Source: Musa acuminata AAA Group (taxonomy: Eukaryota > Streptophyta > Magnoliopsida > Zingiberales > Musaceae). From it: a DNA stretch of 64,000 nucleotides. Within the stretch, counting starts at the first letter, position 1; each line of letters starts with the position of its first letter. The stretch is from contig NC_088356.1 of the NCBI RefSeq assembly GCF_036884655.1, positions 13,223,001-13,287,000 of the forward strand, read 5' to 3'. Below the pieces are notes generated by a model. It was not told where the DNA came from and ran no database searches. It worked only from the letters and a program-made list of their open reading frames with translations. Both the position numbers and the translations under genes were made by a program. Shown here piece after piece: positions 11,524 to 59,874 of this stretch.

Positions 11524-12515
11524 CTATTAGTCATAGATGTCCTGTAAATCAATCTAGTAAGTGATGACATGTGTACCATGATACGTAGTCTTTTTGCTTA
11601 TTATTATTATGATATTTTCTCACTTTATATTACTTGTTTCATAAATATATTGTGATATCTATGGATTCGTGCAATGAGAGTCAGATTGTGATGAGATCAC
11701 GATAATGAGACTGATTCACCTTTAAACATAGACCCTAAATAATCCTGATCATAGGTTACTCGAGAGGGATATCGAGATAATCGGACAAACTTGTGTGCTA
11801 TATATTCGTCCATATGATGGAGGCAGATAGTCTCATAGCTGCTCGTGTGGGGTCACTAGGGCTACAATGCAGGTGCTCATTGGAGAATGAGTTCACTAAT
11901 TTATCCGCTCACAGAATGCTGGATGGTTGATGATACATCATTATCAGACAGCGATTCCGTCATCCCAGTGGTGTACTTGGTCCTTAGACTTGAGACACTA
12001 AAGATGTCTTGTATGAATACTCCACTCTTTGATAATGGACTTATAGGTTTGGAAGTTCAAGATTTAGTACAGCCGATCATCGGGAGTGGCAGTCAATCTT
12101 ACGATGGCTATTGAGTGTCGATAAAGGATCATACCGCTGACAAGGTGGCGACGGCCACAGCAAGCAGGGAGACGAGATGAGTTAGGGTTTTCTAGCCAAA
12201 AGATAATTTTGCCTCTCGGATTTTTAGAAATTTCAAGTTCTGTCCTTTGTCCAAATTATAAAAATACCCCTCATAAATCAAAAAATTCCCTACATGTCCC
12301 TGATTTTTAAAAAATATTAATTAATTAAAAGATTTAATTGATTATTATTTTTTATTATTATCTAGTAGTTCTACATGTTGATGATTTATACATGTGATAT
12401 ATGATATATGGACGGATGATCATGGACCATGTGATGTGTGTACTTGTGATTATTATTATTATTAGGGCCTGCGAGCCTCCATTTTATTTCTCATTTATTG
12501 TCGGGCCTGCGTGCC
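11524..12515 (+). repeat. 5' LTR of outer copia element, first part
   Basis: This matches the 3' LTR at 41541-42245 over several hundred bases, for example CACCTTTAAACA, ACTCGAGAGGG, TCCATATGATGGA and GGCTATTGAGTGTCGATAAAGGAT in the same order. The first base of the terminus is mutated, so the start is approximate. The LTR is cut at 12515 by gypsy element G1 and resumes at 32699, with GTGCC present on both sides. Divergence from the 3' LTR is high, so this is the oldest layer of the nest. Confidence 0.8.
12511..12515. other. Target site duplication GTGCC of G1, left copy
   Basis: GTGCC precedes the G1 terminus TGTAATATCC at 12516 and recurs at 32694-32698 immediately after the other terminus GGGGCGTGACA at 32693. 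A 5 bp duplication is the expected size. It shows that everything between belongs to one insertion into the copia LTR. Confidence 0.9.
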
Positions 12516-12843
12516 TGTAATATCCTCGCTTTTGAAAATTATTAATAAAGATTTATTTATAAATCAGAGGACCTATATGTAAATATGGAAGTTTCAAGGA
12601 CTAAACTGTTAAGTTGTAAAAAGAAGAAAATAAAGAAAACCGAAAATTCGGTTTTATCCCACCGCCTCCCACTCTCTCTCTGTTTCTTCGAGAAACAGAG
12701 AGAAGCGGTGGGGCGTGGGGAGAAGAAGAAGAGAAGTAGAGGGAGAAGAGAAGAAGAGGGAAAAGAAGAGAGGAAGAAGAGAAGAAAAGAAGAAGTAGAA
12801 GAGAGGGAAGATGGAGAGGAGAAAGAGAGGCAGCTGCAGCAGC
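12516..12843 (+). repeat. Start of G1 5' LTR (plus orientation), cut by the inversion
   Basis: The first 328 bases of the 4.07 kb G1 LTR, from TGTAATATCCTCGC to GCTGCAGCAGC. The identical sequence lies in reverse at 15830-16157, where it forms the start of the other G1 LTR. The 5 bases GCAGC at 12839-12843 match the bases flanking the far end of G2 (21546-21550 read on the minus strand), so originally G2 was inserted here. Confidence 0.9.
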
Positions 12844-12858
12844 TGTAATATCCCATTA

Positions 12859-12900
12859 GTCCCACATCGGAAGTGGGGAATGTGTATGATTAGCTTATAA
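12859..12900 (+). promoter_or_regulatory. snRNA-type USE plus TATA motif in TRIM LTR
   Basis: GTCCCACATCG at 12859-12869 matches the plant snRNA upstream sequence element consensus RTCCCACATCG. TATAA follows at 12896-12900, about 34 bp centre to centre, the spacing known for Pol II-type plant snRNA genes. The same pair is in the right LTR at 13221-13231 and 13258-13262. The match is seen in the sequence; promoter activity is inferred. Confidence 0.5.
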
Positions 12901-13010
12901 GGGCCTGATGAGTGTACTACGTTACCTCCCGCTTAAGCATTTTGGTCCGCCGTTGAGGACCAAAATGGAGTTATTGGCCAGTTAGCTCATCAGACCCGGG
13001 TCGTGACATT

Positions 13011-13027
13011 TGGTATCAGAGCCGACC
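13011..13027 (+). other. Primer binding site of TRIM
   Basis: TGGTATCAGAGCCGACC lies three bases after the left LTR and is complementary to the 3' end of plant initiator tRNA-Met at its first 12 to 13 bases. Confidence 0.85.
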
Positions 13028-13370
13028 TAGCATTAGGGCAGGGTGAGAGGGCTGCAGTAGGAAAGGGCTACCCGTGGATGGAGTCAGAGAACTCATCACG
13101 GCGTGGAGCCACCACTGAGTTAAACCTCACATGCACTATGCTAGGGTTCGATCTGGGATATGTCAGGCCTTGACGAGGACGTCAAGCTAATTGGGTTGGG
13201 GATAGTGTAATATCTCATTAGTCCCACATCGGAAGTGGGGAATGTGTATGATTAGCTTATAAGGGCCTGATGAGTGTACTACGTTACCTCCCGCTTAAGC
13301 ATTTTGGTCCGCCGTTGAGGACCAAAATGGAGTTATTGGCCAGTTAGCTCATCAGACCCGGGTCGTGACA

Positions 13371-16157
13371 ACCAGACAGAAGTCTCCCACGTCTGGGAGC
13401 TCCATCCACCCACGTCTAGGTGAAGTCAGAGGGGGCCGGCAGAGCATCGCAGGCTCTATGCATAACTCCCTTTACCATTTCTGGCAAAGGTTCACATTAT
13501 CCCACAACACCAGAATACAAGAGGGCAGATTAAACAATAAGTAGCATAATACGGAAGCACACGCGGAACAACAATACGTACATGTGCCTTTACGAGACAA
13601 TACGATGCAAGCAACAATCTCTCACAAATGTATTCAGTTTTGGAATGAAATGAAGGCAAGAGTATACAGGGATTCAAAGCATTCATACTGAGCTCAATTC
13701 AAAATAGGAAGGTTAGATGAATTCAATATCCAAAGGAATGAAACTGGAATAGGCACATATCGAAAGCAAATGCGGAACAATAGGATATACATGTGCCTAT
13801 ATGAGTCAATACGATATAGCATAAACGTTACACAACAGTTTTCAAGAATGCAATAATTTTAAGGACAAGAGCATACAAGAATTCAAAGCAGTAATATAAA
13901 GCTCAATTGAATGAGAAAGCTAAAGGATATCAATTTCCAAAGGAATGAAACCAGAATATGAGAAATCGACCAAAGCTCGATTTCTGGCAGAATACAGAAG
14001 GCACATTGAACAAATGATTCAAACTATCAATCGTGCTCCAATTTACTCAGAAATAATCATTGGATTATACTTTCAGATAAGACAGGCTTCATATGAATTA
14101 AACTGTCCAACAGAGAGAGTTACAAATAATTTGGTAAGCAAGTGTCGTAGAACAAAATCTCTGTTGGTAGAATTCATAATGTCAGATTCAACAGATAACT
14201 AGGCAGGTGTTTGGATTCCAAATCTTTCAATCCATATATCAAAGAAAGGTCTACGAGTCTAGTTTCCAATGAAATCAGTTTTGAACAAATCAGAGTTTCC
14301 ACAAAGACTTATAGGCAGCTCGGTATCAAAAGGTCAGAATCTCAGAAGTTGCATAGATTCGAATCGTTACGTCTAAACAGGAGATATAACAAATGCAAGG
14401 CTAGAATAATTCAAAGTTCCACATATTCAAAGCAAATGTGGAGATAAAATTGGCAGTGAGAAAAGATCAGGAAACTTGCAATAAGACATATCAGAGCAAT
14501 TATAGGAGAAACGAACAGGGAACTTGCAATAGAAAGGATCGAAACAAGTGGGAAACTTGCCTTTCAAAGATTTCGATCCGAAGATCCAAAGAAGGTGCCA
14601 GCCCAAATCCTTCTACTTTTCCTCCGTGTCCTCTCTCTGTTTCATTTTGTGCTCCCGTTTTCTTCCTTTTCTTCGCAACTACACCACGTGTCGAACATCG
14701 AGGCACAGTCACCTGCTCTCTCTTACTCTCATTCCTTCTTTTTCTTTCCCAAACGCAGCTGCCATAGCCGCCGCCGCTGCCGCTGCCACAATCGCAGCCC
14801 CTTCCACCGCACTATCTTCCTTCCTCCCTTCTCTCGCAGACATAACTGCTGCATACGCAGTCGCTGCCGCTGCGGCCGCAATCCCGTCCGCAGCCCCTTT
14901 TTCCCCCTTTCCTTTCTTTTCTTTCCCAGCTGCAACTGCCGCAGTCGCAGTCGCAACCATGGCCGCAGCCACCACAGCCGCAGCCTTTTATTTCTCCCCC
15001 GCTCTATTTCCTCTCCTTCTCTTCCAGCTGCAGCTGCCACTGCCACAGCTGCCTCTCCTTCTCCTCTTCCTCTCTTCTTCCCTTTTACTTTCTCTTCTTC
15101 TTCCTTTCCTTCTCTTCTTTCCCAGCTGCACTGCTGCAGTCGCAGCCTCAGCCACGACCACAGCCTCTTCTTCCTCCCCTGCTCATCTTCCTCTCCTTCT
15201 CTTCCAACTGCAGCTGCCATCGCCGCAGCCGCAGCCCCTTCTTTCCCTTCTCTTCTTCCTCTCCTTCCCTTCTCTTCCTTCCTCTTACTCTTTCCCTGCC
15301 ATAGCTGCAGCTGCCACAGCCGCAGCCGCAGCTACTTCTTTCCCTTCTCCTCTTCCTTCTCCTTCCTTTCTTCTTCTTCTCTTCTTCTCCTTCCTCCCCT
15401 TCTTCTTCCCGGCGTCACACACACCCTCTCCTCTGTTTCCTCTGCAGGGAACAGAGGTATCACAACCTCTTCTCCTGCTTCCCCTTCTTCTTCTCTTCCT
15501 CTTCTTCTTCTTATGCTCTTCTCCTACCCGACACCCCACACGTCTCCTCTGTTTCCACCTGCAGGAAACAGAGGTGCTGCAGCCCTAGCTGCTGCCACCT
15601 CTCGCTCCTCTCCGTCTTCCCTCTCTTTTCCCTCTTCTTCTCCTTCTCTTCTTCTCCTCTTCCCTTTTTCCTCCCCAACGCCACACACCTCCTCGCTGCA
15701 GCCTTGCCGCAGCTATCCTCCTCTCTTCTTCTTCTTCTTCTTCTTCTTCTTCTTCCCTTTTCATCCTCAACGCCCCACACATCCTCTCCTCTGTTTCAAC
15801 CTGCGGAAAACAGAGGTGCTGCAGCCCTAGCTGCTGCAGCTGCCTCTCTTTCTCCTCTCCATCTTCCCTCTCTTCTACTTCTTCTTTTCTTCTCTTCTTC
15901 CTCTCTTCTTTTCCCTCTTCTTCTCTTCTCCCTCTACTTCTCTTCTTCTTCTCCCCACGCCCCACCGCTTCTCTCTGTTTCTCGAAGAAACAGAGAGAGA
16001 GTGGGAGGCGGTGGGATAAAACCGAATTTTCGGTTTTCTTTATTTTCTTCTTTTTACAACTTAACAGTTTAGTCCTTGAAACTTCCATATTTACATATAG
16101 GTCCTCTGATTTATAAATAAATCTTTATTAATAATTTTCAAAAGCGAGGATATTACA
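13371..16157 (-). repeat. G1 3' LTR, main part (inverted block)
   Basis: A 2787 bp stretch repeated at 19076-21550 (and 12516-12843 at its end). In its present position it reads on the minus strand from TGTAATATCC at 16157 to the TRIM insertion point at 13371. The remainder of the same LTR is at 31411-32693. Joining the parts gives 4065 bp, against 4076 bp for the other G1 LTR. By eye the pair differs by about six substitutions and two short CTT-type indels, roughly 99.8 percent identity. A pyrimidine-rich block fills 14600-15960. Confidence 0.88.
14600..15960. repeat. Pyrimidine-rich low-complexity block of G1 LTR
   Basis: About 1.35 kb dominated by CTT/TCC runs mixed with GCAGCTGCC and CCGCAGCC motifs. 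Four internal copies of a motif like CTCTGTTTC..CTGC..GAAACAGAGG, each a small inverted repeat, occur at about 15430, 15550, 15790 and 15975. The matching block in the other LTR is 20305-21550. Long open frames on both strands here (for example 14548-15588 plus) encode Ala/Ser/Leu/Phe homopolymers and are composition artefacts. Confidence 0.75.
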
Positions 16158-17797
16158 CTCTCCCCTCCTTAAAAGAAAATTTAGTCCTCTAAATTGATCA
16201 TAGCTCAATCGATGAAAAGATGAGGATTGTGATATCTTTATTTCCTCCTCCTGCTCTTAAATAGTTTCGTCAATACAATACAATTACATAATTATCCACG
16301 AGTGATCGAAATATTCTCCTCCTTGATCCTCAATAGACGGTAACCCGACCTTCAATCAATTTCTAAAAATACTTGCGCACCCTGTAATTAATCAAATAAG
16401 TCGTTACTTCAGAAAATACTCGTTTTTGATGATCACCTGATTCAACTATCCATAATCAATAAAAAGCCTCAATGTTCCATCCATCTTTTTAACTAATACC
16501 ATAGCACCCCATGATAAAATATTAAGCCAAATAAAATCCTCATTTAATAATCCTTGCAGTTGCTTTTCCAATTCCACTTACTCAAATGATATCTTTCTGT
16601 AGAGAGGCTTAGATATTGGGATTGTCCCAAGGACCAAATCAAAAGTAAGATCACATTTTGAAGGTAATTCAAGTAAGTCATCCTGGGATACATTAGGCAA
16701 GGAGATAAATAATGTCCCATACTCTCAAAATAAAAGATCGGCTGATCAAATATGCAAAAGTGATCATTTGTTATATACCAATCCATACTGATATGATAGG
16801 AAGATAGCCAATCCATACCAAGTATAATATCAAAACTCCAAATCTCTAGGAGAACTAAATCAGCAAAAGTTCAAGTTCTCCAACAAAAATCAAACAAGAG
16901 GACCAGATTCAAGTTCGTTATCAAAGAATTCCCAATGATCATATTTACATATAGCACATAATATAGTGGTCTTGGTTGAATACCCAAGTGATAGGCAGAA
17001 TATTCCGAATCAAATCATAGATGAGACCCATGGTCAAACAAATATTTGCATTCTTTCATAAACATGCATAATACCTTTGACCACTAATTCAGAAGTTTCA
17101 GAATCATATTCAGTGATAGCATACACTCTGACATGGGCTGATGATTTATGAGGCAGTGACTCTTTCTTCTTATTCAAGGGGCAGTCTTTTATTTTATGAT
17201 CCAACTTTCTACAAACAAAATAGACTCTAATCACCCGAAACACAAATTTATTTCATAATTTAACTTATAATTCACACATGATTGAGTCTTTTGTGATGAC
17301 TTCCCATTTCAAATCCAAAGGTCTTGACCCTCTTGTTATTACTTTCTGATTCATTTCCAATCATATTTTTATTGCTAAACTTATCCTTATCATTCTTGCC
17401 ACATATCTCCAAAAATTCTTTTCATTATTGCCAATAATAATCAGCCTCTACTTCCAATATAAGGTAGCAAAAGAAATCTTTTGATCATTAGAACAATTTT
17501 GTATATCAAATATCTTCTCCGTTTGCATCATTCATTTTTTCTACCACCAATGAAATTAGGTCCACCAAGCTTCCGCTGTGCCACTCTGATTCAATATTCC
17601 CAATTACCCCTTTCATCCCACTTAATTAATCAAAACCAGATGAAATAGGTGAACTAAATGTCACCGTCATCCTAGATTCCTAAAAGACATCAAGGAAAAT
17701 CTTCCCGATCACTATAGTGTACTAGACCTCGAAATATTTTGCACGTCAACATATCAAATATTTCAGTAATCCTCAAACCATGCTCTGATACCACCTC
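16158..17797 (-). pseudogene. Decayed and deleted internal region of G1
   Basis: Only 1640 bases separate the two G1 LTRs. On the minus strand it holds a primer site TGGTATCAGAGCATG (17779-17793), a gag start resembling that of G2 but with an early stop (about 17673), a damaged CCHC region reading CRKLDHKIKDCPLNKKK (17034-17243), a protease-end segment MDWLSSYHISMDWY (about 16816) and the beginning of reverse transcriptase (16200-16560). Integrase, RNase H and most of reverse transcriptase are deleted. The polypurine tract AAGGAGGGGAGAG abuts the LTR at 16158. No protein could be made, so G1 can move only with help. Confidence 0.82.
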
Positions 17798-20700
17798 TGT
17801 CACGCCCCTCAAAATATTATCCATGATATTAAAATTTTTCATCATCACAAACCAATCCAGGATCCAAACTAACGTTTGAGGACACTGAAAAACATTCAAT
17901 CAAATTCACATCCATAAAACCTGTGCATTTTAAAATCATATATCACATCACTCGATAATTCACATTTATGGCAACCCAAGCCAACTTGACAAACATGAAC
18001 AACATTTATAAATCCACAAGCTAAATAAATTATACAATCAGAACTCCAACTATTCACCACAAGTTCATATCGTCATAAATTAGACTTAACATTCCGAAAT
18101 TCCAAATAAGAGAGATCTTCTAACACTTTTACACAGTATATCCATTTCGATTCATCGACAACATTTCATTACATACAAAACATACTTATACAACAATATC
18201 ATAATAACCACCCAGACTTGCCCATAATTCTGAATAGCTATCCACTGCCTCAGCCCAAATCAACATCTCGAAGAGTGACAAGCTGACCTGAAAGATTTAT
18301 ATAACAACGGAGTGAGCCAAAAACGGCTCAGCAAGTGACAAAGCATATTCAGAACAAAAGGAACGGTTTCAAACGAGTAAGGTATCATAATGCAAGGCAG
18401 AATACAAGAATTCTCAAGGATACCATCTCAATAGATACCAAATCATACGTATCATGTCATTCAAAACATATTTGATCCATAACGAATGGAGCATAGAGTA
18501 ATTGGAACATATCAATGGCAGATAGGACATTTCAGAACATATCAGTTCATAGCAAATGGAGCACAGAGTAATTGGAGCATATCAGTAACAAAGGAAACAT
18601 ATCGGAGCTTATCAATGGCAGATAGGACATTTCAGAACATATCAGTTCATAGCAAATGGAGCACAGAGTAATTGGAGCATATCAGTAACAAAGGAAACAT
18701 ATCGGAGCTTATCAATGGCAGATAGGACATTTCAGAACATATCAGTTCATAGCAAATGGAGCACAGAGTAATTGGAGCATATCAGTAACAAAGGAAACAT
18801 ATCGGAGCTTATCAATGGCAGATAAAATGTTCCGGAGCATATCAACGACATATGGAACATTTCGAAGCATATTATCAGTGAATGAAGCATTTCAGAGCAT
18901 ATCAAACTCATATGTCGTACAGAAGCTCAAACGTCGTCCTTGACGTTGCAATCATATCATACTTATCCAGAGCAGGAACAGAAATAACTCACCAAAACTC
19001 TGGATGTCATATCAAACATATAGAGGGTGTAGTGGGATCACAGACAGAATGTGATTCATCCATTTCTGAATGACCACCAGACAGAAGTCTCCCACGTCTG
19101 GGAGCTCCATCCACCCACGTCTAGGTGAAGTCAGAGGGGGCCGGCAGAGCATCGCAGGCTCTATGCATAACTCCCTTTACCATTTCTGGCAAAGGTTCAC
19201 ATTATCCCACAACACCAGAATACAAGAGGGCAGATTAAACAATAAGTAGCATAATACGGAAGCACACGCGGAACAACAATACGTACATGTGCCTTTACGA
19301 GACAATACGATGCAAGCAACAATCTCTCACAAATGTATTCAGTTTTGGAATGAAATGAAGGCAAGAGTATACAGGGATTCAAAGCATTCATACTGAGCTC
19401 AATTCAAAATAGGAAGGTTAGATGAATTCAATATCCAAAGGAATGAAACTGGAATAGGCACATATCGAAAGCAAATGCGGAACAATAGGATATACATGTG
19501 CCTATATGAGTCAATACGATATAGCATAAACGTTACACAACAGTTTTCAAGAATGCAATAATTTTAAGGACAAGAGCATACAAGAATTCAAAGCAGTAAT
19601 ATAAAGCTCAATTGAATGAGAAAGCTAAAGGATATCAATTTCCAAAGGAATGAAACCAGAATATGAGAAATCGACCAAAGCTCGATTTCTGGCAGAATAC
19701 AGAAGGCACATTGAACAAATGATTCAAACTATCAATCGTGCTCCAATTTACTCAGAAATAATCATTGGATTATACTTTCAGATAAGACAGGCTTCATATG
19801 AATTAAACTGTCCAACAGAGAGAGTTACAAATAATTTGGTAAGCAAGTGTCGTAGAACAAAATCTCTGTTGGTAGAATTCATAATGTCAGATTCAACAGA
19901 TAACTGGGCAGGTGTTTGGATTCCAAATCTTTCAATCCATATATCAAAGAAAGGTCTACGAGTCTAGTTTCCAATGAAATCAGTTTTGAACAAATCAGAG
20001 TTTCCACAAAGACTTATAGGCAGCTCGGTATCAAAAGGTCAGAATCTCAGAAGTTGCACAGATTCGAACCGTTACGTCTAAACAGGAGATATAACAAATG
20101 CAAGGCTAGAATAATTCAAAGTTCCACATATTCAAAGCAAATGTGGAGATAAAATTGGCAGTGAGAAAAGATCAGGAAACTTGCAATAAGACATATCAGA
20201 GCAATTATAGGAGAAACGAACAGGGAACTTGCAATAGAAAGGATCGAAACAAGTGGGAAACTTGCCTTTCAAAGATTTCGATCCGAAGATCCAAAGAAGG
20301 TGCCAGCCCAAATCCTTCTACTTTTCCTCCGTGTCCTCTCTCTGTTTCATTTTGTGCTCCCGTTTTCTTCCTTTTCTTCGCAACTACACCACGTGTCGAA
20401 CATCGAGGCACAGTCACCTGCTCTCTCTTACTCTCATTCCTTCTTTTTCTTTCCCAAACGCAGCTGCCATAGCCGCCGCCGCTGCCGCTGCCACAATCGC
20501 AGCCCCTTCCACCGCACTATCTTCCTTCCTCCCTTCTCTCGCAGACATAACTGCTGCATACGCAGTCGCTGCCGCTGCGGCCGCAATCCCGTCTGCAGCC
20601 CCTTTTTCCCCCTTTCCTTTCTTTTCTTTCCCAGCTGCAACTGCCGCAGTCGCAGTCGCAACCATGGCCGCAGCCACCACAGCCGCAGCCTTTTATTTCT

Positions 20701-21550
20701 CCCCCGCTCTATTTCCTCTCCTTCTCTTCCAGCTGCAGCTGCCACTGCCACAGCTGCCTCTCCTTCTCCTCTTCCTCTCTTCTTCCCTTTTACTTTCTCT
20801 TCTTCTTCCTTTCCTTCTCTTCTTTCCCAGCTGCACTGCTGCAGTCGCAGCCTCAGCCACGACCACAGCCTCTTCTTCCTCCCCTGCTCATCTTCCTCTC
20901 CTTCTTCTCTTCCAACTGCAGCTGCCATCGCCGCAGCCGCAGCCCCTTCTTTCCCTTCTCTTCTTCCTCTCCTTCCCTTCTCTTCCTTCCTCTTACTCTT
21001 TCCCTGCCATAGCTGCAGCTGCCACAGCCGCAGCCGCAGCTACTTCTTTCCCTTCTCCTCTTCCTTCTCCTTCCTTTCTTCTTCTTCTCTTCTTCTCTTC
21101 TTCTCCTTCCTCCCCTTCTTCTTCCCGGCGTCACACACACCCTCTCCTCTGTTTCCTCTGCAGGGAACAGAGGTATCACAACCTCTTCTCCTGCTTCCCC
21201 TTCTTCTTCTCTTCCTCTTCTTCTTCTTATGCTCTTCTCCTACCCGACACCCCACACGTCTCCTCTGTTTCCACCTGCAGGAAACAGAGGTGCTGCAGCC
21301 CTAGCTGCTGCCACCTCTCGCTCCTCTCCGTCTTCCCTCTCTTTTCCCTCTTCTTCTCCTTCTCTTCTTCTCCTCTTCCCTTTTTCCTCCCCAACGCCAC
21401 ACACCTCCTCGTTGCAGCCTTGCCGCAGCTATCCTCCTCTCTTCTTCTTCTTCTTCTTCTTCTTCTTCTTCCCTTTTCATCCTCAACGCCCCACACATCC
21501 TCTCCTCTGTTTCAACCTGCGGAAAACAGAGGTGCTGCAGCCCTAGCTGC
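17798..21550 (-). repeat. G1 5' LTR, main part (inverted block)
   Basis: The larger part of the first G1 LTR: on the plus strand it begins TGTCACGCCCC at 17798 and stops at 21550 where G2 begins. Its missing first 328 bases are at 12516-12843. The 1283 bases 17798-19080 are an inverted copy of 31411-32693 with no difference that I could see. A 100 bp unit is repeated three times at about 18521-18820. Confidence 0.88.
18521..18820. repeat. 100 bp tandem repeat, three units, in G1 LTR
   Basis: GATAGGACATTTCAG starts at 18521, 18621 and 18721, an exact 100 bp period. Within each unit the shorter motif AACATATCAG/GAGCATATCA recurs every 20-30 bases. The inverted copy sits at about 31680-31980 with the same unit number. 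Confidence 0.85.
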
Positions 21551-24174
21551 TGTCACGCCCCTAAAAATATCCATTATATTTAAAATCTTTCGTCACAACT
21601 AACCCAGGATCCAAACACACATTTGAGGTCACTAAGAAAACATTCAGATCAAAAATTTCACTTCTATAATCTACCAATTCATAACCCTGTACAATTCATA
21701 AACATAGCACACATCACTCGATAATTCATACAATCTAAACTCGACTCATCAAAATAAAAACCACAATATAAATCCACAAGTGGGGAAATCCATGCAGTCA
21801 CCACAATCATCGATTTACCATAAGTTCATATCATTACACAATTTTAATTTAACATTCCAAAACCCTATACATGAGGGATCCTTCAACTTACACAAAATCC
21901 ACAGGTTTAGATTTATAGTCACATTTCATTAGATGCAAGGTAGCTTATACACAACTACATATATGCTAACAAAAGTTCTGCCCAACGTCTTCTAAACTTT
22001 CCACTGCCCCAGCCCATTCTTAACATTTAAGCAAGCGATACGCTATCCTGAAAAATTTATCAACAAACGGGGTGAGCATAAAGAGCTCAGCAAGTGACTA
22101 ACATATCCATAACAAAATAGTACAATTTCCAAAAAGATACAGTATCAAAACACAAAAGCAGAAATATACGATTTCGTATACATAATATCATTAGGAGCAG
22201 AATCGTAATTGTCCTTTTTTATCATACATATTTGGTTCCTGACAGATGGGGCATAGAGTAATTGGAGCATATCAGAAACAAAGGAAACATATCGGAGCTT
22301 ATCAATGGCATATAAAATGTTCCAGAACACATCAACGATCTATGGAACATTACGAAGCAAACTCAATAGTGAATGAAGCATTTCAGAGCATATCAAACTC
22401 ATATGTCGTACAGAAGCTCAAACGTCGTCCTTGACGTTGCAATCATATCATACTTATCCAGAGCACGAACAGAAATAACTCACCAAAACTCTGGATGTCA
22501 CATCAAACATATAGAGGGTGTAGTGGGATCTCAGTCAGAATGTGATTCATCCATTTCTGAATGACCACCTGACAAAAGTCTCCCACGTCTGGGAGCTCCA
22601 TCCACCCACGTCTAGGTGAAGTCAGAGGGGGCCGGCAGAGCATCGCAGGCTCTATGCATAACTCCCTTTACCATTTCTGGCAAAGGTTCACAACTCCCTT
22701 TACCATTTCTGGCAAAGGTTCACAACTCCCTTTACCATTTCTGGCAAAGGTTCACAACTCCCTTTACCATTTCTGGCAAAGGTTCACATTATCCCACACA
22801 CCAGAGTACAAGAAGGCAGTTTCAAAAATAAGCAGCATATAACGGAAGCACACGCGGAACAACCAAACATACATGTGCCTTTTCAAAAACAATGATGCAA
22901 GGAACAAATCTCTCACAAAAGTATTCATTTTAGGAAAGAATTGGAAGCAAGAGTGTACAGGGATCCCAAGCAATCATAATCAGCTCAATTCCAATAAGAA
23001 GGTTAGACAAATTCAGATATCCCAAGGAATGGAACCAAATACGCGAAATCAACCAAAGCTCGATTTCGGACAGAATTCCAGTGGCACATCAAACAAATAT
23101 TTTAGAATAACAATTATGCTCCAATACCCATAATAAGGCTATGGTCGAATCATATATCAATCTATATTAAGATGGAACAGATTTCATATGAAACAGGGCT
23201 CCCAACACTGAGTTACCTCTGATTTGGTAACACAAGGTCAAAATCATAATCACTGTGTTACAGAATTTATAGGGTCGGAATCAACAGACGATAGGGTGGG
23301 CAATTAAACTCCAAAATTTTCAAACTATATGTCAAAAGAGAGAATTTCAAGTCTACTTTCAAATAAAATCAGTTTGATACAAATCAGAATTTTCAACAGG
23401 GAGTTATAGGCGTTTTAGTATCGAAAGGTCAGAAATCTGAACTCTGTTTTACAGCGTCTATAGGCTCTTTTGAAACAAATTTTTGGGTAAGTATTCGGTG
23501 TCCAAAATCTACAAAATCGGTGTCAAAAGAAACACATACGAGTCTAATTTCAAACAAAATAGTTCCTGCCTGAATTCTCATTCTATATTAAAACTTATAG
23601 CCGAAACAGTGCTTAGGGGTCAGTTTACCGAAAGACTTTCAGAATCCATGGTTTAAGTCCAAAGAGAGATATATCAGTTTCTAAATAGAAATCTTCCAAT
23701 TTATTTTGAATCAACATAAAAACAGAGTCAAATACTTATGTAGGATGGGGTTAGAACACTTGCCTTTGCAAATCTTGACCCGAAATGACAAGATTAAAGC
23801 AAGAACCCTAAAAGCCCCAATTTTCTTTCTCTTCTTCTTCTTCTTCTTCTTCTTCTTCTTTCTTTCTTTCTTTCCCTGATCACCCACGAGCTGCCTCCTC
23901 TGCTTCCTTAACAACGAAGGCAGAGAGGCTTAAGCGGTGGAATTTGTCATTTGGTGCATTTTGCAGTTTAGTCCTTGTTTTTATCATATTCACGATTAGG
24001 TCCTTAGGGTTTACATATAGATCCTCAGATTTTTTTTTTTTTTTGAACAGATCTCCCAAATCTTAAAAATAAGTTACCTCTGATTCATACTCTATTTCTT
24101 GTGTCAATTAAAAATAGATACTTACATTATCACCAGAAATATTATACGAAAATTCGGAAATGAGGGGTGTTACA
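21551..24174 (-). repeat. 3' LTR of intact gypsy element G2
   Basis: A 2624 bp LTR, TGTAACACCCC (minus strand, 24174) to GGGGCGTGACA (21551). Against the 5' LTR at 28756-31410 I find one substitution (22588 C versus 29794 T region), one T fewer or more in a poly-T run, and one unit difference in a 32 bp tandem repeat. Such identity indicates a very recent insertion. Parts are homologous to the G1 LTR (for example 22370-22580 with 18880-19080), so G1 and G2 are related families. Confidence 0.95.
22660..22787. repeat. 32 bp tandem repeat, four units, in G2 3' LTR
   Basis: Units starting AACTCCCTTTACC lie at 22660, 22692, 22724 and 22756. The other LTR of the same element has five units (29865-30024), and the G1 LTR has a single unit (about 13465 and 19168). 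Confidence 0.9.
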
Positions 24175-24223
24175 CTCTCCCCCCCTTAAAAGAAAAATTT
24201 AGTCCTCTAAATTTATCGTACCT

Positions 24224-27200
24224 CTATTCGATGAAAAGACGAGGATACACCTTTTTCATTTCCTCTTCTAGCTCCCAAGTTGTCTCTTCTCCAGAATGAT
24301 GTCTCCAATTTACTTGAACCAATGGGATGACCCGATTCCTTAGGACTTTTTCTTTCTTATCAATAATCTGAATAGGCTCTTCCACATAGGATAGATCTTT
24401 ATCGAACTCCACCAGCTCATACTTAATGATGTGAGAAGGGTCATACATATACTTTCTGATCATCGAGACATGAAATATATCATGGACATGGCTCAATGCT
24501 GGTGGCAAGGCAATCCTGTAAGCGACAGAACCAACCCTCTCAAGAACCTCAAAAGGTCCAATAAATCTTGGGCTTAATTTTCCTTTCTTCCCAAACCTCA
24601 TAATGCCTTTGGAAGGGGAGACTTTTAAGAATACAAAATCTCCGATTTCAAACTCAATATCTCGTCTTCTATTGTCAGCATAACTCTTTTGACGACTCTG
24701 AGCAGTTTTTAACCTTTTCCTTATTACTTGAATTTTCTCGGTAGTTTCTTGTACCTTGTCCGGTGCTAATAGCTTTCTGTCTCCAACTTCCTCCCAACAT
24801 ACAGGTGTTACGCACTTTCGCCCATATAGAGCTTCATAAGGAGCCATCTGAATACTTGAATGATAACTATTATTATACGTGAACTCAACAAGTGAAATAT
24901 CCTTATCCCATTCACCTTTCCAATCCATAACATAGGCTCTAAGCAAATCCTCAAGTGTTTGAATTGTTCTTTCTGACTGACCATCAGTCTGAGGATGATA
25001 TGCAGTACTAAACTTGACTTTAGTGCCCATCGACTCCTGCAATTTTCTCCAGAATCTAGAGAGAAATCTGGAGTCTCTATCAGAGATAATCTCCTTTGGA
25101 ATACCATGAAGTCTTACTACTTCATTAACATATAAATCTGCAAGTCTATCAAGTGAATAAGTCATATTAATCGGTAGGAAATGCGCAGATTTTGTTAACC
25201 TATCAATGATAACCCAAATAGCATCATGCTTCCTCGAGGTTCTGGGTAGTCCTGAAACAAAATCCATAGTAATACATTCCCATTTCCATTCAGGAATAAC
25301 TAAAGGTTGCAACAACCCTCCAGGTCTTTGGTGTTCTACTTTGATTTGCTGACAAGTCAAACATTTAGAAACATACATTGCCATTTCTTTCTTCATGCCT
25401 TTCCACCAATAGTGACTTCGAAGATCTCTATACATCTTAGTGCTCCCAGGGTGTAGGGTGTACTTTGAAGTATGACTTTCAGTTAGGATTTGATTCTTGA
25501 TAACTAGTTCATTTGGTACACATACTCTCTCCCCAAATCTCAATAGGCCATCCTTTGAAATTTGAAATTGTGGCTTCAATCCCTTTTCTACTTCACTCCT
25601 CAAGTAGATTAAATGTGGATCTCGTAATTGTCCTTCCTTAATTTGTTGCATAAGATCAGACTGCACTTGAATGGAGGCCATCAGAATCATCGAGTCTTGC
25701 TCTTTCCTCAAAGCTTTCAAATCAAAATTTTCTTCTATTAGCTTCCATTGCTTCACGACCAGACTAGCCATAAAACTTGTAGATTTCCTACTAAGTGCAT
25801 CAGCTACAACATTGGCTTTGCCCGGGTGATAACGGATGGTACAATCATAATCCTTCAGAAGTTCAATCCATCTTCGCTGCCTCATGTTTAACTCTTTCTG
25901 AGTGAAAATATATTTTAAACTCTTGTGATCAGTAAAGATTTCAAACTGCCGACCATACAAATAATGTCTCCAAATCTTTAGAGCAAAAATAATTGCTGCC
26001 AATTCCAAATCATGAGTTGGGTAATTCAGTTCATAACCTTTAAGTTGCCTAGAAGCATACGCAATTACTCTCCCTTCCTGCATCAAAACACATCCTAGGC
26101 CCTTACTTGAAGCATCAGTATAAACTACAAACTCATCATTACCCCTTGGAATAGTGAGAATAGGGGCACTAGTCAATCTTCTTTTTAACTCTTGAAAACT
26201 TTGCTCACAATCATCACCCCATACAAATTTCATATTCTTCTTAGTGAGTTTGGTGAGAGGTTGAGCAATTCGAGAAAATCCCTCCACAAATCTCCTGTAA
26301 TAACCTGCCATGCCCAAGAAGCTCCTAACTTCTGTCACATTTGTTGGTACTTCCCATTCAACTACAGCTTCTATTTTCCTTGGATCAACAGATATACCCT
26401 TTCCTGAAATCACATGGCCTAAGAAGGCAACTTCATTCAACCAAAATTCACATTTGCTGAACTTTGCATACAACTTCTTTTCTCTTAGTATGGACAATAC
26501 CTTCCTCAAGTGTTCCTCATGCTCCTGATTACTCCTTGAATACACCAATATGTCATCAATAAATACAATTACACAGATATCCAAGAGCTGTTGAAATGTC
26601 CTATTCATTAGTTCCATAAAAGCTGCAGGGGCATTAGTCAAACCAAAAGGCATCACCAAGAATTCATAATGACCATATCGAGTTCTGAAGGCTGTTTTTG
26701 AAATATCCTCCTCTTTGATCCTCAACTGATAGTAACCTGACCTCAGGTCAATCTTAGAGAATACTTGTGCACCCTGCAGTTGATCAAACAAATCATCAAT
26801 TCTAGGTATGGGATATTTGTTTTTGATGGTCACCTGATTCAACTGTCTATAATCAATACAAAGCCTCAATGTTCCATCCTTCTTCTTCACTAATAGTACC
26901 GGAGCACCCCATGGGGATACACTGGGTCGTATGAAACCCTTATCTAATAATTCTTGTATTTGCTTCTTTAATTCTTCTAACTCAAGTGGTGCCATTCTGT
27001 AGGGAGGCTTAGATATTGGGGTTGTACTGGGGACTAGATCAATAGCAAATTCACCCTCTCTATCTAGAGGTAAACCAGGCAAGTCATCAGGAAATACATC
27101 AGGGAATTCTTTGACCACTGAAATTTCATCTATGTGGGTTTCCTGATTTGAATGCTCCTTTACACACACCATATAACAAAGACAACCTTTCTGCATAAGA

Positions 27201-28627
27201 TGATAAGCTTGAAGTGCGGATATCAAGCAAGGAGGCAAATCATGCTTAATGCCCTCAAAGAAAAATATAGGCTGATCTGGTATGCAGAAGGTAATTATTT
27301 TTTTGTAACAGTCAATACTAGCGTGATGAGAAGATAACCAATCCATGCCAAGTATAATATCAAAACCCTGGATCTCTAGGAGAATCAAATCAGCAAGGAG
27401 TTCATGGTCTCCAATAGAGATCAAACAAGATGGGTAGACTACGTTTGTTGCCAATGAATCTCCAACAGCAGTTGTTACATATAGCATATAATCCAGGGGT
27501 TTAGGTAGAATATCCAAGTGACAAGCAAAGTGTTGTGAAACAAATGATAAGTTGGAGCCGGGATCAAACAAAACTTTTGCATTTCTTTTAGAAACATGAA
27601 GAATACCTTCCACCACAGATTTAGAAGCTTTAGAATCTTGTTCCGTGATAGCGTACACTCTAGCATGGGCTGAGGGTCTAGGAGACAGTGGCTCTCTTTT
27701 CCTGTTCAGTGGGCAATCTTTTATTTGATGACCTAGCTTTCCACAACTAAAACATGCTCCAGTCACCCGAAAACACCGACTCGTTTCATGATTTGATCCA
27801 CATTTTTCACATAACTGAGTCCTCCCCCATGGTTTCCTTTTCTCAAATCCAGATGTCTTAAACCTCTTGTTACTATCTTCATATTTATTTTCTCTCCTGC
27901 TTTTGCTAGTAAATTTGTCCCTTTGGCTCTTGCCAATGATTTCTTGAATTTCCTCCATGTCTCTTTCAATTTTCAAAGCTCTTTCTACCGTATCAGCATA
28001 TGTTTGTAATTTTAAAGCTGACATTCGGCTTCTTATTGCTGGCCGTAATCCCCTTTCAAACCTTCTTGCCTTTCTAGATTCATCATCAGTCATATGTGTG
28101 GCAAACCTGGAGAGCTCAGTAAATCTAGACTCATACTTTGTAACCGTCATACTTCCCTGGATAAGGTTCAAGAACTCCAATTCTTTTTGCTCTCTCATAC
28201 AATCGGGAAAATATTTGTCGTAAAACTTTTCTTGGAATAACTTCCATGTCATTTGCTCATGTTTGATTTCAGACATCCTCTTAATCATTCTCCACCAGTG
28301 TTCAGCTTCTCCTTCCAGCATAAAGGTGGCAAGAAAAACCTTTCGTTCATCAGAGTAACTTAGGGCATCAAATATTTTCTCTATCTGCATCATCCATCGT
28401 TCCGCCACCATTGGATCAGACTCACCACTGAAACTGGGAGGACTAAGCTTCTTAAACTGTCCAATTCCCAACCCCGTCCGGTTTGATGTCTCTATTCCAT
28501 CATTACTTCCTTGTTGGACAGGTTGTTGTTGTTGTTGCATCACTTGTGCCATAGTCTCCAAAGTCCGCATAATACCACTCAATTGATCAGTAGTAGATGC
28601 AACAGGAGAACCAGATGATCTCGTCAT
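24224..28627 (-). CDS. Intact gag-pol polyprotein of chromovirus-like gypsy element G2
   Basis: An unbroken 1467-codon frame. In order: gag (about 55-230); two zinc knuckles, C273/C276/H280/C285 and C292/C295/H300/C305; aspartic protease at D355 (FDPGS, a Pro variant common in plant gypsy elements); reverse transcriptase with D627 and FIDD at 689-692; RNase H with D838, E875 and D900; integrase zinc finger (H1052 or H1059, C1089, C1092) and catalytic D1122, D1183, E1219 (D-x60-D-x35-E). The C-terminus ends in [19 protein letters not shown], resembling the modified chromodomain-type end of Tekay/Del elements. All catalytic residues are present. The start ATG lies about 110 bases after the primer site. 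Gag and pol share one frame with no recoding site. The lineage name is inferred from motifs. Confidence 0.95.
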
Positions 28628-28736
28628 CCTTGCTTCCTAAAACGTCAAAAGAACATTTTCTTTGATCAATCTCTAAATGATAGTCAATAAACCTCAAAAA
28701 GAAAAAAAAACATAACATTCTTAGTGATTCTCAAAT

Positions 28737-28751
28737 CATGCTCTGATACCA
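28737..28751 (-). other. Primer binding site of G2
   Basis: TGGTATCAGAGCATG on the minus strand, four bases inside the 5' LTR, complementary to initiator tRNA-Met. G1 has the same sequence at the same distance (17779-17793). Confidence 0.9.
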
Positions 28752-28755
28752 CCTC

Positions 28756-31410
28756 TGTCACGCCCCTAAAAATATCCATTATATTTAAAATCTTTCGTCA
28801 CAACTAACCCAGGATCCAAACACACATTTGAGGTCACTAAGAAAACATTCAGATCAAAAATTTCACTTCTATAATCTACCAATTCATAACCCTGTACAAT
28901 TCATAAACATAGCACACATCACTCGATAATTCATACAATCTAAACTCGACTCATCAAAATAAAAACCACAATATAAATCCACAAGTGGGGAAATCCATGC
29001 AGTCACCACAATCATCGATTTACCATAAGTTCATATCATTACACAATTTTAATTTAACATTCCAAAACCCTATACATGAGGGATCCTTCAACTTACACAA
29101 AATCCACAGGTTTAGATTTATAGTCACATTTCATTAGATGCAAGGTAGCTTATACACAACTACATATATGCTAACAAAAGTTCTGCCCAACGTCTTCTAA
29201 ACTTTCCACTGCCCCAGCCCATTCTTAACATTTAAGCAAGCGATACGCTATCCTGAAAAATTTATCAACAAACGGGGTGAGCATAAAGAGCTCAGCAAGT
29301 GACTAACATATCCATAACAAAATAGTACAATTTCCAAAAAGATACAGTATCAAAACACAAAAGCAGAAATATACGATTTCGTATACATAATATCATTAGG
29401 AGCAGAATCGTAATTGTCCTTTTTTATCATACATATTTGGTTCCTGACAGATGGGGCATAGAGTAATTGGAGCATATCAGAAACAAAGGAAACATATCGG
29501 AGCTTATCAATGGCATATAAAATGTTCCAGAACACATCAACGATCTATGGAACATTACGAAGCAAACTCAATAGTGAATGAAGCATTTCAGAGCATATCA
29601 AACTCATATGTCGTACAGAAGCTCAAACGTCGTCCTTGACGTTGCAATCATATCATACTTATCCAGAGCACGAACAGAAATAACTCACCAAAACTCTGGA
29701 TGTCACATCAAACATATAGAGGGTGTAGTGGGATCTCAGTCAGAATGTGATTCATCCATTTCTGAATGACCACCTGACAAAAGTCTCCCACGTTTGGGAG
29801 CTCCATCCACCCACGTCTAGGTGAAGTCAGAGGGGGCCGGCAGAGCATCGCAGGCTCTATGCATAACTCCCTTTACCATTTCTGGCAAAGGTTCACAACT
29901 CCCTTTACCATTTCTGGCAAAGGTTCACAACTCCCTTTACCATTTCTGGCAAAGGTTCACAACTCCCTTTACCATTTCTGGCAAAGGTTCACAACTCCCT
30001 TTACCATTTCTGGCAAAGGTTCACATTATCCCACACACCAGAGTACAAGAAGGCAGTTTCAAAAATAAGCAGCATATAACGGAAGCACACGCGGAACAAC
30101 CAAACATACATGTGCCTTTTCAAAAACAATGATGCAAGGAACAAATCTCTCACAAAAGTATTCATTTTAGGAAAGAATTGGAAGCAAGAGTGTACAGGGA
30201 TCCCAAGCAATCATAATCAGCTCAATTCCAATAAGAAGGTTAGACAAATTCAGATATCCCAAGGAATGGAACCAAATACGCGAAATCAACCAAAGCTCGA
30301 TTTCGGACAGAATTCCAGTGGCACATCAAACAAATATTTTAGAATAACAATTATGCTCCAATACCCATAATAAGGCTATGGTCGAATCATATATCAATCT
30401 ATATTAAGATGGAACAGATTTCATATGAAACAGGGCTCCCAACACTGAGTTACCTCTGATTTGGTAACACAAGGTCAAAATCATAATCACTGTGTTACAG
30501 AATTTATAGGGTCGGAATCAACAGACGATAGGGTGGGCAATTAAACTCCAAAATTTTCAAACTATATGTCAAAAGAGAGAATTTCAAGTCTACTTTCAAA
30601 TAAAATCAGTTTGATACAAATCAGAATTTTCAACAGGGAGTTATAGGCGTTTTAGTATCGAAAGGTCAGAAATCTGAACTCTGTTTTACAGCGTCTATAG
30701 GCTCTTTTGAAACAAATTTTTGGGTAAGTATTCGGTGTCCAAAATCTACAAAATCGGTGTCAAAAGAAACACATACGAGTCTAATTTCAAACAAAATAGT
30801 TCCTGCCTGAATTCTCATTCTATATTAAAACTTATAGCCGAAACAGTGCTTAGGGGTCAGTTTACCGAAAGACTTTCAGAATCCATGGTTTAAGTCCAAA
30901 GAGAGATATATCAGTTTCTAAATAGAAATCTTCCAATTTATTTTGAATCAACATAAAAACAGAGTCAAATACTTATGTAGGATGGGGTTAGAACACTTGC
31001 CTTTGCAAATCTTGACCCGAAATGACAAGATTAAAGCAAGAACCCTAAAAGCCCCAATTTTCTTTCTCTTCTTCTTCTTCTTCTTCTTCTTCTTCTTTCT
31101 TTCTTTCTTTCCCTGATCACCCACGAGCTGCCTCCTCTGCTTCCTTAACAACGAAGGCAGAGAGGCTTAAGCGGTGGAATTTGTCATTTGGTGCATTTTG
31201 CAGTTTAGTCCTTGTTTTTATCATATTCACGATTAGGTCCTTAGGGTTTACATATAGATCCTCAGATTTTTTTTTTTTTTGAACAGATCTCCCAAATCTT
31301 AAAAATAAGTTACCTCTGATTCATACTCTATTTCTTGTGTCAATTAAAAATAGATACTTACATTATCACCAGAAATATTATACGAAAATTCGGAAATGAG
31401 GGGTGTTACA
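28756..31410 (-). repeat. 5' LTR of intact gypsy element G2
   Basis: A 2655 bp LTR ending GGGGTGTTACA at 31410. It differs from the 3' LTR almost only by one extra 32 bp unit. The element's outer base at 31410 is followed by CTGGT, which is the TRIM's duplication and not that of G2, showing that 31410/31411 is a rearrangement joint. Poly-T and CTT tracts near 31065-31115 and 31267-31280 may sit in the leader. Confidence 0.95.
29865..30024. repeat. 32 bp tandem repeat, five units, in G2 5' LTR
   Basis: Five head-to-tail copies of the unit AACTCCCTTTACC...GGTTCAC begin at 29865. The one-unit difference from the 3' LTR arose during or after the last round of reverse transcription. Confidence 0.9.
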
Positions 31411-32693
31411 CTGGTGGTCATTCAGAAATGGATGAATCACATTCTGTCTGTGATCCCACTACACCCTCTATATGTTTGATATGACATCCAGAGTTTTGGT
31501 GAGTTATTTCTGTTCCTGCTCTGGATAAGTATGATATGATTGCAACGTCAAGGACGACGTTTGAGCTTCTGTACGACATATGAGTTTGATATGCTCTGAA
31601 ATGCTTCATTCACTGATAATATGCTTCGAAATGTTCCATATGTCGTTGATATGCTCCGGAACATTTTATCTGCCATTGATAAGCTCCGATATGTTTCCTT
31701 TGTTACTGATATGCTCCAATTACTCTGTGCTCCATTTGCTATGAACTGATATGTTCTGAAATGTCCTATCTGCCATTGATAAGCTCCGATATGTTTCCTT
31801 TGTTACTGATATGCTCCAATTACTCTGTGCTCCATTTGCTATGAACTGATATGTTCTGAAATGTCCTATCTGCCATTGATAAGCTCCGATATGTTTCCTT
31901 TGTTACTGATATGCTCCAATTACTCTGTGCTCCATTTGCTATGAACTGATATGTTCTGAAATGTCCTATCTGCCATTGATATGTTCCAATTACTCTATGC
32001 TCCATTCGTTATGGATCAAATATGTTTTGAATGACATGATACGTATGATTTGGTATCTATTGAGATGGTATCCTTGAGAATTCTTGTATTCTGCCTTGCA
32101 TTATGATACCTTACTCGTTTGAAACCGTTCCTTTTGTTCTGAATATGCTTTGTCACTTGCTGAGCCGTTTTTGGCTCACTCCGTTGTTATATAAATCTTT
32201 CAGGTCAGCTTGTCACTCTTCGAGATGTTGATTTGGGCTGAGGCAGTGGATAGCTATTCAGAATTATGGGCAAGTCTGGGTGGTTATTATGATATTGTTG
32301 TATAAGTATGTTTTGTATGAAATGAAATGTTGTCGATGAATCGAAATGGATATACTGTGTAAAAGTGTTAGAAGATCTCTCTTATTTGGAATTTCGGAAT
32401 GTTAAGTCTAATTTATGACGATATGAACTTGTGGTGAATAGTTGGAGTTCTGATTGTATAATTTATTTAGCTTGTGGATTTATAAATGTTGTTCATGTTT
32501 GTCAAGTTGGCTTGGGTTGCCATAAATGTGAATTATCGAGTGATGTGATATATGATTTTAAAATGCACAGGTTTTATGGATGTGAATTTGATTGAATGTT
32601 TTTCAGTGTCCTCAAACGTTAGTTTGGATCCTGGATTGGTTTGTGATGATGAAAAATTTTAATATCATGGATAATATTTTGAGGGGCGTGACA
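31411..32693 (+). repeat. End of G1 3' LTR (plus orientation), outside the inversion
   Basis: The last 1283 bases of the G1 LTR, from CTGGTGGTCATTC to GGGGCGTGACA. It is the reverse complement of 17798-19080. The first five bases CTGGT pair with ACCAG at 13371-13375 as the target duplication of the TRIM. It is followed by GTGCC, the right copy of the G1 duplication. Confidence 0.9.
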
Positions 32694-33659
32694 GTGCCTA
32701 TGATTAAGTTGTAATCACACAAGGAGGTGCAGTGAGAGTGTGGAAGCGATAGCGAGACCCACGAGACGGACGATCACGATGCATGGAGATGCGTCGAGAT
32801 GCCGACGAGGACCAGATGGACGATCACTAGGCATGGAGATGCACCGCTGCATACATAGATCTTGATGTGAGTGATTAGACCCACTGGCTCGGGCTTGATC
32901 ACATTAGACTATGGTCCATGATCATCTGGTGTAATTGCTCATGTGATGTGTGATTGTTTATACACCTAGTAGATATGTATATATATATTTACATATGATG
33001 TAGATATATATTAAATATGTATATGTGTGATATGTCATATTAGGAGACCAAATCAAAGAAACCCCTCTCTCGATAATATTAAGTCGGTAAACGTGAGATA
33101 ATTAGATTGACCCACATGGCCTTCCATCGTTATAGGTAGGGACTGATTCTCGGTGTAGGTTGAGTTGGTCGAATCCCTCGAGGCTCACCTATATTGCAAT
33201 TCGCTACCTTGCCTACGACATAGAGATGCCACTGGTGACCTGAGGACATTATATACTTGGTCGAGTCCCTCGAGGGTATATCATCGAATCGGACTCATCT
33301 TGTAACGATGGTGTTGACTTAATCGAACATCATGGTTGGTCGAGTCCCTCGAGACCATGGGTATTCAGAGGTCGAACAGGACAGGAATCACAAGGAGTTG
33401 TGATCGGTAATAGTTGCCTACCTTTCGGGCTTAGTGTGATTGGTCGAGTCCCTCGAGGTTACAATAAGATGCTGATTGGATCCCGATCCCCACTAGAAGT
33501 CTGCCGAAGACTTTTGTTTCATGTGCTGAGGGTGTCGCGTGACTGGCTAGTAAAATAGTGAGAGCATATTAAGATAGAAGTTCATATCTTGATAGTTTAT
33601 TTTTACAAAATCTACATGTTATTTATTTCTGTTGCATCTTTATTTTCAGAAAATATCGC
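32694..33659 (+). repeat. Outer copia element: rest of 5' LTR and leader
   Basis: The copia LTR resumes here after the G1 insertion. The exact LTR/leader boundary is not visible because the primer site has decayed. A motif close to TTGGTCGAGTCCCTCGAGG occurs four times, at 33165, 33257, 33336 and 33440. No coding frame is present before gag at about 33660. Confidence 0.6.
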
Positions 33660-59654: not shown

Positions 59655-59839
59655 CTCCCTCTTCGTGTCTTCGGTCGGGAGAGGAAGCGACGTGTAGAAT
59701 GAGAGGAGGGAGAGAGCGAGAAGCAGTCCTACTCGGACAGCAGTACGTCGGAGATCAAATTAAGGAACCTTGATTTTTCTCCGCCTGAGGGTACAGGGGA
59801 TCACATTAGTGTACCTTGATTTTTCCCCTTTTTTTTTTC

Positions 59840-59874
<35 letters not shown>

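Follow-up and report, generated by a model that had tools for sequence, protein, structure and literature searches.

Class II transposable elements are already known to leave inversions with exchanged target duplications, and the same holds for alternative transposition. The P element is an example of hybrid element insertion. As the available text of one study describes class II hybrid element insertion and alternative transposition by Ac/Ds and VANDAL21, the ends of two copies cooperate, the DNA between the sites can be inverted and the ends are exact (PMC12312487). The available part of the work on Galileo in Drosophila attributes chimeric copies at inversion breakpoints to ectopic recombination and unchanged copies to hybrid insertion (PMC2775673). 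Here, we describe inverted DNA, exact junctions and probable cooperation of ends of this kind among long terminal repeat (LTR) elements, in a 64,000-nucleotide stretch of the genome of Musa acuminata AAA Group (positions 13223001 to 13287000 of contig C30 in a 1.53-Gb assembly; hereafter, the window). Three LTR elements form a nested complex, in which a Ty3/gypsy retrotransposon (G2) and a 527-bp terminal-repeat retrotransposon in miniature (TRIM) are inserted in a third element (G1). G2 and the TRIM have exchanged their target duplications, and part of the complex is inverted.

Exchanged target duplications and an inverted segment

Element boundaries were established by self-comparison of the window and by alignment. 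G1 spans 12516 to 32693; its LTRs measure 4076 and 4065 bp, and its internal region 1640 bp. Both of its ends run forward, and its middle (13371 to 21550) runs backward. The TRIM, in forward orientation, lies between the left end of G1 and this middle part, and G2, on the reverse strand, lies between the middle part and the right end. The features and the four junctions (J1 to J4), with unique 3' (U3) and unique 5' (U5) LTR ends indicated, are as follows.

12511-12515, no strand: left copy of the G1 target duplication GTGCC (single GTGCC in the empty allele on contig C8)
12516-12843, plus: first 328 bp of the G1 5' LTR, ending in the site-1 duplication GCAGC (12839-12843); 100% inverted match to 15829-16157
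12843/12844, J1: G1 with GCAGC, then the TRIM U3 end (TGTAATATCCC)
12844-13370, plus: TRIM, 527 bp, LTRs at 12844-13008 and 13206-13370; U3 end abuts GCAGC, U5 end abuts ACCAG (13371-13375)
13370/13371, J2: TRIM U5 end (CGTGACA), then ACCAG of reversed G1
13371-16157, minus: first 2787 bp of the G1 3' LTR, reversed, starting with ACCAG, the complement of the site-2 duplication CTGGT
16158-17797, minus: G1 internal region, 1640 bp, reversed
17798-21550, minus: remainder of the G1 5' LTR (3748 bp) and the other copy of the site-1 duplication (GCTGC, 21546-21550), both reversed
13371-21550, no strand: smaller segment (8,180 bp) whose reversal restores all three duplications; the other such segment is 12844-31410
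21550/21551, J3: reversed G1 with GCTGC, then the G2 U5 end
21551-31410, minus: G2, Ty3/gypsy LTR retrotransposon, LTRs at 21551-24174 and 28756-31410; GCTGC adjoins its U5 end and CTGGT its U3 end
24224-28627, minus: uninterrupted G2 gag-pol open frame, 1467 amino acids (gag, protease, reverse transcriptase, RNase H, integrase)
31410/31411, J4: G2 U3 end, then CTGGT of G1
31411-32693, plus: remainder of the G1 3' LTR, starting with the other copy of the site-2 duplication (CTGGT, 31411-31415)
32694-32698, no strand: right copy of the G1 target duplication GTGCC

The original prediction held that neither G2 nor the TRIM has a target duplication as assembled, and the flanking 5-mers are indeed those it gave (for the TRIM, GCAGC and ACCAG). 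The site-1 duplication GCAGC, in the G1 5' LTR, is common to the TRIM U3 end and the G2 U5 end, and the site-2 duplication CTGGT, in the G1 3' LTR, is common to the TRIM U5 end and the G2 U3 end. The outer LTR termini of both elements, four in total, are complete, and each site holds one U3 and one U5 end. As expected of a hybrid insertion, the ends of two elements thus lie at one target site and share its duplication. Because the two insertions fell in different LTR copies of G1, the empty form of each site is visible in the other LTR. At both sites, the other G1 LTR is an exact match to the two flanks when these are joined around one copy of the 5 bp; therefore, no base was lost or gained there. 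The G1 LTRs differ in alignment by 6 substitutions in about 4064 sites and by indels of 8 and 3 bp. As these LTRs are nearly identical and the empty-site matches are exact, the inversion rests on more than the duplications, for which the chance of three 5-bp agreements is about 1e-9, uncorrected for the choice of reversal.

Reversal of 12844 to 31410 behaves as originally predicted: G2 is then flanked by GCAGC on both sides, the TRIM by CTGGT on both sides, and G1 becomes a single straight element with its GTGCC pair, whose parts close at the predicted length (4076 + 1640 + 4065 = 9781). Reversal of only the 8,180 bp at 13371 to 21550 also restores G1 and gives the TRIM two copies of GCAGC and G2 two copies of CTGGT. 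The outer solution brings together U3 ends that share 5 bases (TGTAA, as the prediction had it), and the inner solution brings together U5 ends that share 7 (CGTGACA). An inversion is present, but its extent is not unique. The 18.6-kb and 8,180-bp reversals are equivalent, and therefore the sequence cannot choose the true breakpoints. Of the proposal that the breakpoints are at element ends, the base-exact junctions stand, whereas the outer termini lose their place as the sole breakpoints to an equal solution at the inner U5 ends.

The flanks of the complex are 95.7 to 96.5% identical to contig C8, the inferred homologue, which lacks the G1 complex and has a single GTGCC at the site. This empty allele neither shows nor denies a noninverted stage. 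A third allele, on contig C19, was not found among the matches listed, with the best 40 candidates scored per flank. Contigs C8, C19, and C30 are close in size (53.0, 54.6, and 52.6 Mb), which suggests that the assembly is that of a polyploid with resolved haplotypes. Elsewhere in the genome, LTR starts of the G1 family form 7 same-strand pairs within 10 kb among the best 40 scored, spaced 5,463 to 6,271 bp apart as judged from match positions; the spacing predicted for a straight G1, 5,716 bp, fits these pairs.

Three further observations concern the surroundings of the complex. The first 8433 bp of the window are an LTR element (LTRs at 1 to 1744 and 6691 to 8433, 99.2% identical by self-comparison), and beside it lies a foldback, an inverted repeat with arms at 8948 to 9534 and 9759 to 10405 that are 84.9% identical. 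Positions 49778 to 61781 match C8 at 99.06% over 12 kb, whereas the aligned pieces of 10816 to 49777 match at only 93.9 to 97.9%; the step at 49778 is perhaps a haplotype mosaic boundary.

G2, the TRIM, and their relatives

G2 appears from its sequence to be a young element, and its gag-pol frame is open. Its LTRs (2624 and 2655 bp) begin with TG and end with CA and differ by 1 substitution in 2624 sites, a 1-bp indel, and one 32-bp repeat unit, and its domain order (gag, protease, reverse transcriptase, RNase H, integrase) is that of Ty3/gypsy elements. The integrase zinc-binding domain scores 59 bits, over the Pfam cutoff of 25.5, and the match to the integrase core scores 26.0 bits, under the cutoff of 32.6. 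Relatives of the gag-pol protein are 52 to 61% identical (120 of 432 matches), and those with an organism given are from plants. The TRIM is shorter than 1 kb, has LTRs of 165 bp with 1 difference, and overlaps no open reading frame of at least 120 amino acids. Directly after its 5' LTR stands a sequence resembling a primer-binding site, TGGTATCAGAGC, which we take to be complementary to initiator tRNA-Met. Further copies of the TRIM occur elsewhere in the genome. Beyond the similar termini (TGTAA at U3, CGTGACA at U5), no homology between G2 and the TRIM was found; neither is chimeric, and both are complete, with nearly identical LTR pairs.

The sole difference between the TRIM LTRs is at LTR base 10 (12853 versus 13215), close to J1. 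The junction copy has C, as does the G2 terminus, and the other copy has T; the plain reading is a later mutation. Substitution counts (1/2624 for G2, 1/165 for the TRIM, 6/~4064 for G1) do not differ significantly in any pairwise comparison (p = 0.26, 0.11, and 0.24). The value of 0.11 is the Fisher test of G2 against the TRIM, whose ages are compatible within very wide limits. The substitutions are too few for LTR dating to settle the order of events, and the substitution rate for any conversion to years is one that we assume.

The two families differ in how regularly they carry matching duplications (Fisher p = 0.014). For G2, 15 elements, including the one in the window, were paired by eye from 40 listed U3 matches, with 9 single matches omitted. 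All 14 other full-length copies have perfect 5-bp duplications (12 by script, 2 by reading), in a sample of the best-matching copies in which older ones are unrepresented. Duplications of 5 bp are thus a property of the family, and in the window copy the pair is exchanged. One of the 14 is a three-LTR array; a G2-family array at C12:27265161-27282379 (L095, L096) has three consecutive LTR starts and one outer duplication pair, ACATA. For the TRIM, 20 stretches were fetched, and the 9 with both outer termini were counted, the other 11 (fragments, or an array leaving the stretch) being dropped. A matching duplication is present in 5 of the 9 and missing from 4 (L051, L052, L054, in which 4 of 5 bases agree, and L061); the difference from G2 may be explained by arrays and by recombination among TRIMs.

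Three other TRIM loci were noted. At C20:25805401-25816000 (L105, L054, L106), a three-LTR TRIM array is bordered on one side by the interior of a G2-type LTR in sense orientation and on the other by the outer U5 end of a G2-type LTR in antisense orientation. Orientation flips across the TRIMs, the flanks are TTTAG and TTTAC, and another TRIM, missing its last few bases, lies head to head with the U3 start of the LTR; this array is possibly an older related rearrangement. At C13:4896001-4901800 (L061, L099, L100), a TRIM with identical LTRs and no matching duplication has as its neighbor a G2-type LTR that is truncated and carries short inverted repeats. A tandem TRIM array at C28:20803900-20811000 (L068) has 19 LTR matches, 17 of them full length, spaced mostly 362 bp apart.

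Origin of the inversion

We lean toward the view that complementary DNAs (cDNAs) of G2 and the TRIM integrated in one event with crossed end pairs, a hybrid-element insertion for LTR elements, and we favor this over two normal insertions followed by a loss-free inversion. Linear cDNAs of both elements would have been present together and handled by one integrase, that of G2 or of a close relative. Two cross-molecule intasomes would have formed, TRIM-U3 pairing with G2-U5 and TRIM-U5 with G2-U3, so that a U3 and a U5 end were present in both. At separate sites in G1, each would then have carried out a normal strand transfer with a 5-bp stagger. Joining at two sites of one chromatid would delete or invert the DNA between them, and here the outcome would have been inversion. 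In a variant with the same product, both elements would have integrated normally and at the same time, but the junction gaps would have broken before repair and been rejoined to the wrong partners. Crossed integration accounts for all of the junctions at once. In its favor are the exact, loss-free, reciprocal junctions and the pairing of a U3 with a U5 end at each site, which is also the arrangement in a normal intasome. Also in its favor, no homology was found between the elements beyond their similar termini and neither is chimeric, the feature by which the Galileo work tells hybrid insertion from ectopic recombination. G2 appears young, its frame is open, its age is compatible with that of the TRIM, and the 14 other G2-family copies examined all have perfect duplications. 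A Ty3 intasome has been built in vitro on short LTR-end oligonucleotides and would yield 5-bp duplications; the ends therefore need not share one molecule there, as far as the available text of that study goes (PMC8632968). More tentatively, we propose that LTR-element ends might pair in trans, with the TRIM and an unrelated Ty3/gypsy element forming two hybrid intasomes and inverting 8.2 kb without loss in one event. A hybrid pair of LTR ends, one of the causes originally suggested, is the cause we favor, whereas the suggested cutting and rejoining of preexisting insertions is unnecessary, as crossed cDNA integration would suffice.

Several points weigh against crossed integration. The junctions are known from the assembly sequence alone, and we infer the simultaneity of the two insertions. 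The 5 to 7 shared terminal bases also suit a microhomology inversion, and a G2-type integrase acting on the TRIM is a candidate suggested by similar termini only. Since 4 of 9 other TRIM copies have no matching duplication, mismatched flanks are nothing special for the TRIM. A second clean case was not found, the surroundings of L052, L061, and L054 being rearranged, older, or unclear. The ages of the TRIM and G2 each depend on a single substitution, with very wide limits, and the C at TRIM base 10 near J1 may be a repair trace.

The chief alternative, which we regard as possible but doubtful, is that two ordinary insertions were followed by a loss-free inversion through microhomology or end joining. 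In the outer form, G2 entered site 1 and the TRIM site 2, and 18.6 kb was reversed through TGTAA at the U3 ends; in the inner form, the TRIM entered site 1 and G2 site 2, and 8.2 kb of G1 was reversed through CGTGACA at the U5 ends. No unusual integrase chemistry is needed, and the 5 and 7 shared terminal bases are exactly where they are required. However, nothing was lost at either junction, and loss-free junctions are unusual for end joining. Both LTR termini were struck although the blocks we chose offer 37,844 shared 5-mer pairs for the outer form, and 8,033 shared 7-mer pairs and 686 20-mer pairs for the inner form. Under uniform breakage in the 20.2-kb complex, a G2-end and TRIM-end pair (within 5 bp each) makes up about 2e-6 of break pairs. 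G2 is also young, and the time remaining for a later inversion was probably short, within wide limits. Microhomology repair and centromere-proximal inversions in maize are described in the available text of one study (PMC4806543), which speaks for this alternative. Two related candidates were rejected. Homologous recombination between G2 and the TRIM is unworkable because the elements are unrelated and not chimeric, and a comparison of blocks for the outer solution found no inverted shared stretch of at least 15 bases. If G2 and the TRIM had inserted into an already inverted G1, each would carry a matching duplication.

The remaining explanations appear less probable. A segment flipped by the assembler or scaffolder, also raised by the original prediction, is unlikely. 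Long repeats lie nearby and the complex was found on one homologue only, but there is no N within the window, and we reason that a switch would be expected inside long repeats, not at termini sharing 5 to 7 bases. Patterns accepting either the inverted or the noninverted form of the left and right outer junctions each had one exact match in the genome, the inverted form in the window. The noninverted TRIM-U5 junction of the inner solution had no match genome-wide, the corresponding G2-U5 junction not having been searched, so that three of the four noninverted junctions were sought and none was found anywhere. It is still less likely that cDNAs of G2 and the TRIM entered an unintegrated G1 cDNA with crossed ends and that the three-element product inserted as a unit. 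The entire complex is missing from C8 and the substitution rates are not significantly different, which speaks for this explanation, but G1 may well be older (6/~4064 versus 1/2624 in G2), and an extra step is needed. Least credible is ectopic homologous recombination of the Galileo or BuT5 type, in which sites 1 and 2 would have held two copies of one element and another family would later have replaced one copy. We know of no route for the exact replacement of one element by another, and G2 and the TRIM are complete, nonchimeric, and unrelated to each other. Ectopic recombination does yield exchanged duplications, according to the available parts of two studies (PMC2775673, PMC3355041).

Comparison with known systems

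No LTR-retrotransposon case of such an inversion was found among the papers listed from the open-access literature, judged by titles and the openings of abstracts. If crossed integration is the correct explanation, bursts of retrotransposition would by themselves invert or delete the DNA that lies between two target sites, with no later recombination, and would leave intact elements annotated as lacking target duplications. A larger relative was found for only 11 of 289 plant TRIM subfamilies, according to the available text of one survey (PMC4717578). If a TRIM and an autonomous element had a duplication in common, this would argue for a shared integrase and would name the cointegrating partner. 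Such scars would record in nature which autonomous element supplies the integrase that mobilizes a TRIM. Any assembled genome can be scanned for the signature, a pair of elements within tens of kilobases of each other whose 5-bp flanks are reciprocally complementary.

The locus resembles several described systems only in part. Complete LTR elements without matching duplications also occur among the centromeric retrotransposons of maize CEN10, but these are called chimeric, and the available description includes no reciprocal second element. In aberrant integrations of human immunodeficiency virus type 1 (HIV-1) and avian sarcoma-leukosis virus, host deletions, duplications and, less often, inversions are coupled to integrase (for HIV, PMC5041404). 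There, as far as the available accounts go, one end is apparently joined by host enzymes and is often truncated, whereas this locus has four ends, all of them complete, and two duplications of 5 bp. The Galileo and BuT5 inversions of Drosophila, as described in the portions available, resemble this locus in that the inverted segment has element sequence at both ends and the duplications are complementary and exchanged. They differ in that Galileo has chimeric copies and BuT5 a copy and a 27-bp footprint, each from one family, whereas the elements here are unrelated and intact, and homologous chimeric copies at both breakpoints are not found. The class II process acts on chromosomal elements through a cut-and-paste transposase, whereas the present case, as we read it, involves cDNAs of two unrelated LTR families and no deletion or duplication at a donor site. 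Crossed LTR integration may therefore work like the class II process without being a member of it, as G2 is a Ty3/gypsy element and does not move by cut and paste.

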